From Niabella beijingensis (GTDB taxonomy: Bacteria > Bacteroidota > Bacteroidia > Chitinophagales > Chitinophagaceae): a DNA stretch of 64,000 nucleotides. Location of the stretch: the NCBI RefSeq assembly GCF_020034665.1, contig NZ_JAIQDI010000001.1:372001-436000 (forward strand), given 5' to 3'. Below are positions 40,340 through 45,985 of this stretch, one piece after another. The translations under genes and the position numbers were made by a program. The notes beneath the pieces are model-generated. The model did no database searches. It worked only from the letters and a program-made list of their open reading frames with translations, and was not told the origin of the DNA. Numbering within the stretch: the first letter of the stretch is position 1; every line of letters starts with the position of its first letter.

Positions 40340-41428
40340 TTATTTTTCCGGGTTATTGGGAATACTGATTTCAAAAACGGACCCCTTGCCTTTCTCGGAT
40401 TCCACGGTCACGGTGCCGTTCAGTTTTTCCAGCGCCTCTTTCAGAATGTACAAACCCAGTCCCAGTCCGCCGGGTTGCGCTCCTTTAAAAAACGGGTCAA
40501 AGATCTTTTGTACATATTCGGTATCCATACCTGTTCCGTTATCGGTAACCGTAATAGCGGCACCGGCTGTCCGGGTCCGGATTCCGATGGAGATCTTTTT
40601 ATCCGGTTCTTCCGGACGCTGGCATTTTATGGCATTGGAAAGCAGGTTGGCTATAACGATCTCGATCCGGAAAACATCGCCATAAAAAGGTACCTCCTCA
40701 TTTACCTGTACATTAAATGAGATATCCCTTGTGCCGTTGGACGTACTGTACAGATCCAGCAGCGACCGGACGAGCGCCTCAAAACGGATCCGTTCGTGTT
40801 CCACTTTGAATCGTGCGGTCTTATAGAACTGCACCGTCTGCGATACATAATAATCGAGCTTTTGGATACAGGCATCCATCAGCTTCCAGTAGTCACCGGA
40901 ATCGTCCATCCGGCCTTCCATTTTTACCAGGTCGAGAATACCGGTGGCAGAGGCGATCGGGGCCCGCAGTTCATGGGAAAGACTGTATACAAAGCGGTTG
41001 AGCCCGTCGTTGGTCTTCTGAAGTTCTGCTATTTTTTCGCGGAGTTCTTTGTTGGCCTTGTAATGGTCATAGGCATTCAGCACACTGTTGTGCAATTCAA
41101 GATCGTCCCAGGGCTTGGTGATATACCGGTAGATGTCGCCCTGGTTCACGGCTTCTGCCAGCACTTCGATGTCTGTATATCCCGTCAGCAATACCCGGGG
41201 GATGTGCGGATACCGCTCCTTGGTTATTTTGAAAAACTCAACACCGGTTATCTCCGGCATCCGCTGATCAGATATCAGCACATGGATCTCATCGCGGTCA
41301 AGGATATCGAGTGCTGCGGTCACTGAAAGCGCAGTGAAGATCCTGTACCTGGTTCGGAAGGCGGCTTTAAAGGAGTTGAGGTTTTGCTGCTCATCATCCA
41401 CATAAAGTACATTAATTTCGGGCGTCAT
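40340..41428 (-). CDS. Response regulator receiver fused to a histidine kinase
   Basis: A cytosolic 362-residue hybrid. Residues 5-120 form a receiver with the acidic pocket YVDDE, phospho-acceptor Asp in LISDQRMP near residue 53, and Lys in ITKPWDD. A short coiled coil leads to a HisKA domain (H-box YSLSHELRAPIA near residue 151) and a HATPase_c domain (NLLSNAIK, DNGTGM, GGLGLGLYI). The order REC-HK suggests it receives a phosphate, then controls its own kinase activity. It is the last gene of the E1-GNAT-kinase operon, 14 nt after the sensor kinase. There is no DNA-binding domain. Confidence 0.93.
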   Translation of the reverse strand: MTPEINVLYVDDEQQNLNSFKAAFRTRYRIFTALSVTAALDILDRDEIHVLISDQRMPEITGVEFFKITKERYPHIPRVLLTGYTDIEVLAEAVNQGDIYRYITKPWDDLELHNSVLNAYDHYKANKELREKIAELQKTNDGLNRFVYSLSHELRAPIASATGILDLVKMEGRMDDSGDYWKLMDACIQKLDYYVSQTVQFYKTARFKVEHERIRFEALVRSLLDLYSTSNGTRDISFNVQVNEEVPFYGDVFRIEIVIANLLSNAIKCQRPEEPDKKISIGIRTRTAGAAITVTDNGTGMDTEYVQKIFDPFFKGAQPGGLGLGLYILKEALEKLNGTVTVESEKGKGSVFEISIPNNPEK

Positions 41429-41442
41429 GTAGCAATAGTATT

Positions 41443-43581
41443 TTAACGGATGGGTAAACTAATCACAAAGGTAGTACCTCTTCCCAATTCTGTATCTACC
41501 TGGATGGTACCGTTGTGTTTTTCGATGATCCCCTGCACGATGGAAAGTCCCAGTCCTGTACCCTCTCCCACATCCTTTGTCGTAAAAAACGGGTCAAAGA
41601 TCTTATTTTTCACCTCTTCCGTCATTCCCTGTCCGTTATCCGTTATACTAACCCTGACCTGTGCGTCCTCCTCCCAGGTTTTTATGATCAGCACTCCCGG
41701 CTGCTGGTCCTTAAGGATCCGCTCCTGTATGGTTTGAACAGCATTGGTGATGATGTTCATAAACACCTGGTTGATCTTTCCGGGCGCACATTCGATTTTT
41801 GGCAGTTCGCCCAGTTCCTTTACCAGCTTGAAGTTCTGCGGAAAGGTGCTTTTTACCAGCAGCAGCGTGGATTCGATGCCTTCGTTGAGGTCTACTTTTT
41901 TCCAGTTGGCCTCGTCCACCCTTGCAAAGCTCCGTAGTCCTTTTACGATCTCCGAAGTACGGTGCGCTCCTTCCTTAATTCCCGAAAGCAGGGTGCTTAT
42001 TTCTTCATAGAGGTATTCCAGGTCAATGTCTTTCTTGTGTTTTTCAATTTTCTGGATCTGGAATGCGATATCCCCTGAAGGATCCAGTTTTTCATACATT
42101 CTGATGACTGCCTGCAGGTCCGTAACATCTGCCTCCAGCGGCCGGATATTAGAGGTAACAAAATTTATCGGGTTATTGATCTCATGCGCGATCCCTGCTG
42201 TAAGCTGACCCAGTGATGCCATCTTTTCGGTATCGATCAGCTTTGCCTGGGTGCTCTGGATCTGCTTCATCGCCACTTTCAGCTCCTCATTGATATGTAA
42301 CAATTCTTCGGTCCGGTGCCGTACTTCTTCCTCCAGGCGGATATTCTGTTCTTTGATCAGGCGCTCATTTTCCACAGATACCCGCAATGCCTCTTTGCGC
42401 GCTGCTTCCTGGTCCCTGCGGTAGATATTGATCTTATCGGCCAGGGCCAGTGACAACAACATGATCTGCAAGGCCGATCCGATCTCAAGGGTACGTGAAG
42501 TAAGAATATTGTAGGGAATGACACCGGAGGTCCTCAGCACATAGATGATCACCATTGTAAGAAAAGCGGAGATGGCCAAAAGGAAAAAACGCGCGGGACG
42601 GAACCCTTTTCTCAATACCCGGTAACCAACATACAGGCAATAGATCGATGTTACAAATGCAACTACATTGATGAGGTTGATGGCAATATAAGGACTTACT
42701 GCAAAATGAATAGGAAGGATGGCGGAATAGGCGCAGATCAACAGGGTAAAGCCCTTGTCCAGCCGGGGTGTATACCGCCGGGAATGCAGGAATTTCCTGC
42801 TGAACAAAAGTGTACCGATACCGGAAAAAATACCGCAGAGGTTCACTGTATTGGCCCGGAACCATTCATTACCGGGCCACAGGAATTTAAAGCCATAGCC
42901 CTGCAGCACTACCTGTGTGATCCCGACAAAAAATATAAAAGCAATGTAGTAGTAATAACTGTCGTCCTCCACCACAATACTCAGCAGCAGGTTATACAGC
43001 AGCATGATCACGATAATACCGATATAAATACCAAACAGCAGGTTGCTGGTAGCATTCCGCTGGAATACCGTTACCTTATTGCTTACAAAAAAAGGGAGGT
43101 GCATCGAGGTAGGCGACTTTATCCGCACAAAAATGGTGGCTGTTTCTCCCTGATTCAGAAAAAACGGGTATACATAGTTGATGATATTCAGCGGCCGCTG
43201 ATCAAAGTCATACCGGGCGCCCAGCACCAGTTTATTTTCGATCGCCCCTTTCCGGTAGGTATAAAAGGTCACCTCCTGTAAAACAGGGTTCTCCAGCTCA
43301 AGAAAAAGCGAATCAAAATCAGCGCTGTTCTCCAGATCGAAACGCACCCAAATAGCAGCATCTTTAATTCCCGGACTCTCTTCTTTAAATTCAGATTCAG
43401 GAAGCTGAACGATCTGCTGTATGTCGAGCGAATCGCTTTTATCGGTCAGTATCCTGAAATGCTCAACCGGTAGCGCTCCGGTTGCCACCTGCGGGGTTAT
43501 CTTGTTCTTATCATTTGCAGAAAGTTGGGTTACTGTCAGAAATATAAAAACAAAAAAGAAAAGATTTAATGATTTTGCCAT
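41443..43581 (-). CDS. 7TMR-DISM sensor histidine kinase
   Basis: A 712-residue membrane sensor. After a signal peptide comes an extracytoplasmic 7TMR-DISMED2 beta-sandwich (about residues 30-170; IWVRFDLENSADFDSLFLEL), then seven transmembrane helices (about 180-390), a coiled coil (about 395-455) and the kinase core with H-box GIAHEINNPINF near residue 463, N-box MNIITNAVQTI, DNGQGM and GTGLGLSIV. DISM domains of this type are thought to sense sugars or other small ligands. Its start overlaps the GNAT gene by 16 bp and the REC-kinase follows, which ties the sensor to the enzymes upstream. Confidence 0.94.
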   Translation of the reverse strand: MAKSLNLFFFVFIFLTVTQLSANDKNKITPQVATGALPVEHFRILTDKSDSLDIQQIVQLPESEFKEESPGIKDAAIWVRFDLENSADFDSLFLELENPVLQEVTFYTYRKGAIENKLVLGARYDFDQRPLNIINYVYPFFLNQGETATIFVRIKSPTSMHLPFFVSNKVTVFQRNATSNLLFGIYIGIIVIMLLYNLLLSIVVEDDSYYYYIAFIFFVGITQVVLQGYGFKFLWPGNEWFRANTVNLCGIFSGIGTLLFSRKFLHSRRYTPRLDKGFTLLICAYSAILPIHFAVSPYIAINLINVVAFVTSIYCLYVGYRVLRKGFRPARFFLLAISAFLTMVIIYVLRTSGVIPYNILTSRTLEIGSALQIMLLSLALADKINIYRRDQEAARKEALRVSVENERLIKEQNIRLEEEVRHRTEELLHINEELKVAMKQIQSTQAKLIDTEKMASLGQLTAGIAHEINNPINFVTSNIRPLEADVTDLQAVIRMYEKLDPSGDIAFQIQKIEKHKKDIDLEYLYEEISTLLSGIKEGAHRTSEIVKGLRSFARVDEANWKKVDLNEGIESTLLLVKSTFPQNFKLVKELGELPKIECAPGKINQVFMNIITNAVQTIQERILKDQQPGVLIIKTWEEDAQVRVSITDNGQGMTEEVKNKIFDPFFTTKDVGEGTGLGLSIVQGIIEKHNGTIQVDTELGRGTTFVISLPIR

Positions 43582-45445: not shown

Positions 45446-45520
45446 GAAAAATGAGTAAATTTGAATACAGAAACTTCACAAAAATAGGGATAAATTACCT
45501 GGATACTAATTAATGTGAAT

Positions 45521-45985
45521 ATGGACGGATCCTATTCAAATATTTTATATGTGGATGATGAGATTCATAATTTAAATTCCTTCAAAGCCTGCTTCAGAAG
45601 GGAATTCACCATATTTACTGCTCAAAGTGCAAAAGAGGCCGAACAGATCCTGCAACAAAATGAAATACATGTTATCATTACGGACCAGCGTATGCCGGAA
45701 ACAACCGGTATCCAGTTCCTGACTTCTATAATCCCCCAGCATCCCGATCCCGTGCGGATGATCCTGACGGGTTATGCCGATATCAACGCTGTTATCGAAG
45801 CGATCAATAAGGGGCAGGTCTACCGTTATATCCAAAAGCCCTGGGAAGAAAATCATCTCCGGCAGCTGATCCACGAAGGGATCGACCTTTATACCCGGAG
45901 CATGAATAACAAAAAAATGACCCAGAAGCTGGAAGAAAGTAACCGGCAAATGGAATTCCTGCTTCGCCAATCGCTTCTTTCCTGA
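45521..45985 (+). CDS. Stand-alone response regulator receiver
   Basis: A 154-residue single-domain receiver with a short coiled-coil tail: acidic pocket YVDDE, phospho-acceptor Asp in IITDQRMP, LTGYAD with the conserved Thr, and Lys in IQKPWEE. It resembles the receiver of the REC-kinase at 40.3 kb closely (both have NLNSFKA and DQRMPE-TG), pointing to a shared phosphorelay. It is divergent from the E1-like gene, 75 nt away. A GTG two codons upstream (45515) could also be the start. No output domain is present. Confidence 0.92.
   Translation: MDGSYSNILYVDDEIHNLNSFKACFRREFTIFTAQSAKEAEQILQQNEIHVIITDQRMPETTGIQFLTSIIPQHPDPVRMILTGYADINAVIEAINKGQVYRYIQKPWEENHLRQLIHEGIDLYTRSMNNKKMTQKLEESNRQMEFLLRQSLLS

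Follow-up and report, generated by a model that had tools for sequence, protein, structure and literature searches.

The window analysed here comprises 64,000 nucleotides of the genome of Niabella beijingensis and carries, at positions 40340–45985, five genes of a module that is conserved in the class Bacteroidia far beyond chance. Four of them lie on the minus strand and encode an E1-like (ThiF) enzyme (44288–45445, 385 residues), a GNAT-fold acyltransferase (43566–44291, 241 residues), a 7TMR-DISM sensor histidine kinase (41443–43581, 712 residues) and a protein with receiver, HisKA and HATPase domains, in the following called REC-kinase (40340–41428, 362 residues). A stand-alone receiver (45515–45985, 156 residues) is encoded divergently on the plus strand. 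We regard it as reasonably probable that the GNAT-fold protein makes an N-acyl amino acid which the E1 cyclises, and that the neutral product is the ligand of the kinase, from which phosphate is passed to the receivers.

According to this proposal, the GNAT-fold protein would be an N-acyl amino acid synthase that links an acyl group to an amino acid. The E1, a predicted ATP-dependent cyclase, would activate the free carboxylate of this compound and close a ring, most likely an oxazolone. The neutral product would then get to the periplasm and bind to the 7TMR-DISMED2 domain of the kinase, the candidate receptor, which would phosphorylate REC-kinase and receiver for relay of the signal. Acyltransferase and receptor would form the constant part of the module, and a variable part would cap the carboxylate, either by cyclisation (E1), by cyclisation and desaturation (E1-oxidase fusion) or by methyl esterification (methyltransferase). 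Substrates, ring type, export, binding by the kinase, phosphotransfer path and the purpose of the signal, be it self or cell-to-cell signalling, are what we infer here from the observations described below. We give about an even chance to the further proposal that the module is a cassette of a fixed synthase and a fixed 7TMR-DISM subfamily with an interchangeable capping enzyme, in which lineages switch their signal by the swap of one gene and oxazolones gain a cognate receptor.

Linkage of enzyme and kinase genes

The five reading frames were previously proposed in a sequence-only reading of the window and were confirmed at the same positions. This also applies to the overlaps of 4 nucleotides between the E1 and GNAT genes and of 16 nucleotides between the GNAT and kinase genes, as well as to the gap of 14 nucleotides between kinase and REC-kinase. 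The divergent gap of 75 nucleotides described there is obtained if the ATG at 45521 is used as start of the receiver, and measures 69 nucleotides from the GTG start. The receiver is indeed related to the receiver domain of the hybrid REC-kinase, with 46% identity over 143 columns. Pfam analysis of the five proteins revealed ThiF, 7TMR-DISM_7TM, 7TMR-DISMED2, HATPase_c and Response_reg domains and, in agreement with the earlier statement, neither a ubiquitin-like protein nor a DNA-binding domain.

When public genome contigs were searched with the E1, 11 loci with 51–58% identity were obtained from Chitinophagaceae, Sphingobacteriaceae and one uncultured Bacteroidetes. GNAT and 7TMR-DISM kinase adjoin the E1 in all of them (one locus, L006, is cut within the kinase), accompanied by the stand-alone receiver in 10 and a relative of the REC-kinase in 8 of the 11 loci. 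In a survey of 395 genomes of the class Bacteroidia with sequence profiles, E1 was found in 70 genomes (threshold E 1e-30) from 39 of 197 genera and GNAT in 75 genomes (threshold E 1e-5). The three genes occur together on one contig and strand in 62 of the 70 E1 genomes, with less than 4 kb between E1 and GNAT and less than 7 kb between E1 and DISM kinase. Their order is E1-GNAT-kinase in 57 cases, one of them with two GNATs, and GNAT-E1-kinase in 5. Matches to PF07695 were obtained in 67 of the 70 E1 genomes (121 in total, 1.73 per genome), and by a rough estimate, 1.73 kinases placed at random in a genome of some 3.5 Mb would lead to a value well under 1%. Homologues of E1 and GNAT are therefore found within reach of a 7TMR-DISM kinase across distant genera; a usual separation of the enzyme genes from the kinase genes, named in the sequence-only reading as evidence against a common system, was not observed.

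Among the eight E1 genomes in which the three genes are not linked, four (G052, G089, G129 and G368) have a contig end at the place where the partners are expected; in the 72% complete genome G052, neither GNAT nor DISM was found elsewhere. A set of 72 module loci was compiled from the 62 with E1 and 10 without, loci split over contigs being left out. It contains GNAT (by BLAST) in 69, the kinase in 71, the REC-kinase in 59 and the divergent receiver in 64 loci, and the median gaps between the genes are 0.5, −4 and 1.5 nucleotides.

The linkage is also seen from the side of the kinase. The protein encoded in the window consists of a 7TMR-DISMED2 domain (residues 41–165, 83.8 bits), a 7TM domain (residues 180–383, 169.1 bits), both above the respective cut-off, and an HATPase_c domain (residues 602–711, 89 bits). 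The HisKA match of 24.4 bits is under the cut-off of 26.9, with H466 in the motif HEINNP and the ATP-binding motifs being present. A module-type kinase lies within 4 kb of GNAT in 74 of the 75 GNAT genomes, and the 75th is cut by a contig end. The first 400 kinase residues were compared as a 12-row profile with the 395 genomes. Among the best 72 matches (at least 284 bits), all except that of G355 have a GNAT at a distance of less than 4 kb, which makes 71. The module kinases of G262, G127 and G310 score below 284 bits. At 20 hand-chosen loci, namely G355 and 19 lower-scoring ones, no E1, GNAT, oxidase or slot-methyltransferase neighbours were detected at E 1e-5. On a tree of 71 module kinases and 20 other DISM kinases the module label changes twice, compared to a mean of 18.2 after shuffling. 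The sensor domain is the fastest-changing part of the protein, with a mean distance of 0.76 compared to 0.49 for the kinase core. The genome from which the window is derived contains another 7TMR-DISM protein away from the module (G000:C2:1851041-1852096; L002, L142), with 113 bits for PF07695.

Predicted chemistry and exchange of the capping enzyme

The GNAT-like protein matches no Pfam or NCBIfam family at E 1e-3. A sub-threshold match to Acetyltransf_1 (E 0.048) falls in a range where matches at E up to 1 are at chance level, and a PDB sequence search with the GNAT profile gave a chance-level match only (E 0.4). Hence, its identity rests on the predicted fold, for which the closest solved structure is FeeM, an N-acyl amino acid synthase. 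On this basis, the N-acylation of an amino acid is its likely reaction. In one module (L079, genome G382) two GNAT genes are arranged in tandem.

For the E1, comparison with NCBIfam PRK07877 gave 443 bits (E 1.9e-132, residues 20–377 on profile positions 9–340). This score is below the curated cut-off of 476 bits, with the cyclase half alone being matched. Judged by its sequence, the E1 of the window corresponds to the N-terminal cyclase half of Rv1355c/TrzS-type proteins, here present as a separate protein. The members of this family form oxazolones from N-acyl amino acids. The E1 of a related locus (L012) is a full ThiF-oxidase fusion of 760 residues that reaches 792.5 bits against the same family, which ties the operon to TrzS chemistry. 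D235 of the window E1 aligns with the Asp of the VDN motif of UBA5, and 78 of 79 E1 rows retain it (nine rows missed by a regular expression were read by eye); via this alignment it is the probable counterpart of the adenylation aspartate D217 of TrzS. A CxxC motif is absent in 78 of the 79 rows. The top fold match of the E1 is AclA, which we take to be the ThiF-fold cyclase of the N-acyl-cyclolysine (ACL) system. ACLs are sensed by the transcription factor AclR. With the sequence profile of the E1, AclA chains are matched no better (24 bits) than ThiF (30 bits).

Fusion of the E1 to a flavin oxidase was found in 46 of the 70 E1 genomes, 45 of which were recognised by frame length and one (G129) as a fusion split over two contigs; the remaining 24 include G286. 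A search with the oxidase domain of L012 found no relatives at E 1e-3 in these 24 unfused genomes, including that of the window, and matched five of five fused genomes used as control. At this threshold, an oxidase hidden elsewhere in the genome of the window was rejected. One generic nitroreductase is encoded elsewhere in this genome and is a possible stand-in for the oxidase. Fused and stand-alone forms interleave on a tree calculated from 80 E1s, where the oxidase state requires 7 changes (at least 5 forced); this suggests one chemistry for both. Without the oxidase, either the saturated form or a different ring, for instance a lactam, would be produced.

The best single clue to the function, as we read it, is the swap of the E1 for a methyltransferase. 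GNAT occurs without E1 in nine genomes. In eight of them it adjoins a DISM kinase, the divergent receiver lies upstream and the one gene in the gap encodes a methyltransferase. This is a class I S-adenosylmethionine-dependent enzyme of 251–256 residues in seven loci (L046–L051, L053) and an ICMT-family carboxyl methyltransferase of 213 residues in one (L045, from the same family as the genome of the window); the ninth locus (L052) is cut at a contig end. The methyltransferase state, held by 7 rows, requires 5 changes on a GNAT tree with 83 members; well-supported branches force at least 3 of these. The mean after shuffling is 6.9 changes, and values as low as that observed were obtained in 2 of 500 shuffles. 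The ICMT row falls among E1 rows. The trees of E1, GNAT and kinase are quick searches with support from the Shimodaira–Hasegawa-like approximate likelihood ratio test only and contain several long branches. An E1 with adenylating and a methyltransferase with esterifying action on a carboxylate would each remove the charge of an N-acyl amino acid. The proposal of the sequence-only reading that the enzymes make a molecule sensed by the kinase is supported by the conservation, by the TrzS-family E1 and by the methyltransferase in the same slot in eight of nine cases, the ligand itself being predicted. In one locus (L057:891-1955, genome G089) an extra O-methyltransferase with Methyltransf_2 and dimerisation domains lies between GNAT and kinase, alongside E1 and GNAT.

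Related systems and alternative explanations

The closest known systems are TrzAS (Rv1356c-Rv1355c) and TyzACB, in which an N-acyltransferase stands beside a ThiF-type cyclase as in the window (PMC12856293, PMC10404671). A FeeM-like fold was reported for TyzA, and OxzAB of Pseudoalteromonas rubra represents a further oxazolone pathway (PMC12856293, PMC10404671). Not only does the E1 of the window belong to the Rv1355c/TrzS family, but its fused ThiF-oxidase relatives hold the same slot. The locus of the window differs from them in that the oxidase is absent and a 7TMR-DISM kinase and two receivers are included; no kinase partner is reported in the consulted descriptions of TrzAS and TyzACB. 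N-acyl-cyclolysines are described as signals in Bacteroidota (Linares-Otoya et al. 2025, as cited in parts of PMC13419125). They share with the proposed compounds the character of acylated, cyclised amino acid signals in the same phylum, in addition to the fold match of the E1 to AclA. By sequence, however, the window E1 groups with TrzS, and its product is predicted to be sensed by a membrane kinase.

In the layout of signal enzyme, sensor kinase, REC-kinase and receiver, the module resembles the Phc system of Ralstonia (PhcB-PhcS-PhcR-PhcQ), which according to excerpts of PMC8578825 unites in one operon a methyltransferase, a sensor kinase and two proteins that both lack a DNA-binding domain, namely a REC-kinase and a receiver; the comparison concerns the layout alone, the role of the window enzyme being predicted. 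The Phc signal is given there as a hydroxy fatty acid methyl ester, whereas the predicted product of the window module is an N-acyl amino acid derivative, its capping enzyme is usually the E1-like cyclase and the receiver gene of the window is divergent. The clusters for stieleriacine, thalassotalic and kyonggic acid contain N-acyl amino acid synthase, ThiF, nitroreductase and sometimes methyltransferase genes close together, but the consulted portion of PMC12479983 names no sensor kinase as part of them. NicD shares the architecture of periplasmic 7TMR-DISMED2 and 7TM domains with the kinase of the window. It differs by GGDEF output and a link to carbohydrate sensing, and no adjacent ligand synthase is mentioned in the consulted part of its description (PMC8544897). 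While the parts of the module are known piece by piece, the literature searched offers no precedent for their combination or for the one-gene swap before a receptor subfamily that stays fixed; no description of the module was recognised among the openly licensed full texts listed.

The physiological role of oxazolones is called a major unresolved question by the authors of the TrzAS study (PMC12856293). With a kinase that travels with GNAT in nearly all GNAT genomes this question becomes directly testable. Should the proposal hold, Bacteroidota would possess, besides the N-acyl-cyclolysines, a second type of signalling by acylated amino acids. These bacteria would then have a chemical signalling system of their own, with a lipid signal predicted to be made and sensed by neighbouring genes. 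In addition, 7TMR-DISM receptors, for most of which no ligand is assigned to our knowledge, would gain a class of ligands, and the swap of unrelated carboxyl-modifying enzymes before one receptor subfamily would provide a natural experiment on the joint change of signal and receptor.

Several observations weigh against a cyclised N-acyl amino acid as ligand of the kinase. The oxazolone pathways TyzACB and TrzAS both include an oxidase step, which the E1 of the window lacks. A saturated oxazolone may be unstable, so that the stand-alone E1 could close another ring. The action of the methyltransferases on a carboxylate is likewise a prediction, and the ICMT-family enzyme alone belongs to a family named for carboxyl methylation. 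Four E1 genomes truly break the linkage: in G213 the E1-oxidase is on a different contig from an intact GNAT-kinase pair; G192 contains an E1-oxidase and no GNAT or DISM match; in G207 (L062:6304-8159) no DISM kinase adjoins the E1, and the GNAT beside it is strongly diverged (24% identity to the L012 GNAT), which possibly reflects an earlier or distinct role of the two enzymes; and G286 (L064:6671-7780) encodes, beside a module-type divergent receiver, a ThiF-HATPase_c fusion of 369 residues whose E1 and kinase portions may function within a single chain, unless the gene is degenerate. The kinase of G355 (L148) has a sensor part that scores like those of module kinases (338 bits) and no such neighbour, and is possibly an eavesdropper or an orphan. 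If the tree is restricted to the sensor part, 4 changes of the module label are required, although only 1 is forced. The partial correlation between GNAT and sensor distances given the kinase domain is 0.36, compared to 0.49 between GNAT and kinase domain given the sensor. GNAT and sensor are thus tied no tighter than GNAT and kinase core, which demonstrates linked inheritance and not co-evolution with a ligand; sensor-specific co-evolution was not borne out. Further, the ligand evidence for 7TMR-DISMED2 concerns carbohydrates (NicD, in the consulted part of PMC8544897), and near TrzAS only genes for cyclic di-GMP are mentioned in the excerpts of PMC12856293 and no such kinase.

In an alternative that we rate as rather unlikely, the kinase senses envelope stress or a carbohydrate and switches on production of the N-acyl amino acid or oxazolone, which serves as membrane lipid, surfactant or antimicrobial and not as its ligand. 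The link of 7TMR-DISMED2 to carbohydrate binding in NicD is in accordance with it (excerpts of PMC8544897), as are the induction of oxazolones by antibiotics in several proteobacteria, where their role is described as unresolved, and the antimicrobial activity that N-acyl tyrosine derivatives can have (both in the consulted parts of PMC12856293). Yet, the kinase gene overlaps or nearly abuts the synthase genes, its subfamily stays with GNAT as the capping enzyme changes, and only three modules were seen to end with a DNA-binding regulator, though neighbours were not searched systematically for one. If the E1 formed a lactam or lactone, as AclA presumably does from N-acyl lysine, the signalling logic would be unchanged and the module would be a kinase-sensed cousin of the N-acyl-cyclolysine system instead of an oxazolone system. 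We consider this unlikely, since the 443 bits place the E1 in the TrzS sequence family, AclA chains score no better than ThiF in the profile comparison, and the interleaving of fused and stand-alone E1s suggests a common chemistry.

Protein modification, with the E1 activating a small protein tag or the GNAT acylating kinase or receivers and thereby tuning the two-component system directly, would agree with the membership in the E1 superfamily, the gene overlap and the matches of the E1 to PADLOC E1-E2 models, which are weak (best 1.9e-07, 28 bits). It appears very improbable in view of the missing CxxC motif, the E1-oxidase fusions, the replacement of E1 by methyltransferases and the GNAT fold, which is closest to an N-acyl amino acid synthase. 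Ubiquitin-like conjugation in particular was rejected, as no ubiquitin-like or E2 protein is among the five, the PADLOC matches are weak and the relation to TrzS is far stronger. The same PADLOC matches could point to phage defence by an operon with an E1-like enzyme at its core, an explanation to which we give hardly any chance. They cover part of the ThiF core, and of the other four proteins two have no PADLOC match and two marginal ones (best E 3.8e-4). With no effector recognised, the partners missing and a much stronger relation to the TrzS family, phage defence was rejected.

Receivers, output and flanking DNA

For the signalling by a cyclised product proposed here, the REC-kinase is the predicted relay. 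Its assignment is based on Pfam, which gave HisKA above the cut-off and detected no DNA-binding domain. It contains HELRAP at 152 and, as receiver motif, DQRMPE. Some relatives contain PAS and/or HisKA_3 domains (L049, L075, L085 and L092). In L049, L057 and L085 a receiver-GerE regulator of the LuxR/NarL type is located at the end of the module, which provides a path to transcription there; the window has none. The divergent receiver, likewise assigned by Pfam, ends with the tail MEFLLRQSLLS. This tail is conserved roughly as N-x-Q-L-E-F-L-L-R-Q-x-L-L-S, with E, F and R each present in 59 of 66 receivers, and may dock to an output partner. A further small receiver follows the REC-kinase in 21 of the 72 loci (L007, L008, L012, L013 and others serve as examples among the relatives) and is not present at this position in the window.

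The divergent intergenic region (45446–45514) contains the motif TAnnTTTG, presumably the Bacteroidota promoter consensus, at 45456–45463 on the plus strand and at 45479–45486 on the minus strand. These sites are candidate promoters, for which the motif is weak evidence, as it occurs 48 times in the window compared to 45.5 expected by chance. Downstream of the REC-kinase, at a distance of 21 nucleotides, the minus-strand run is closed by a gene at 38141–40318 that presumably encodes an M3-type peptidase and may be co-transcribed.

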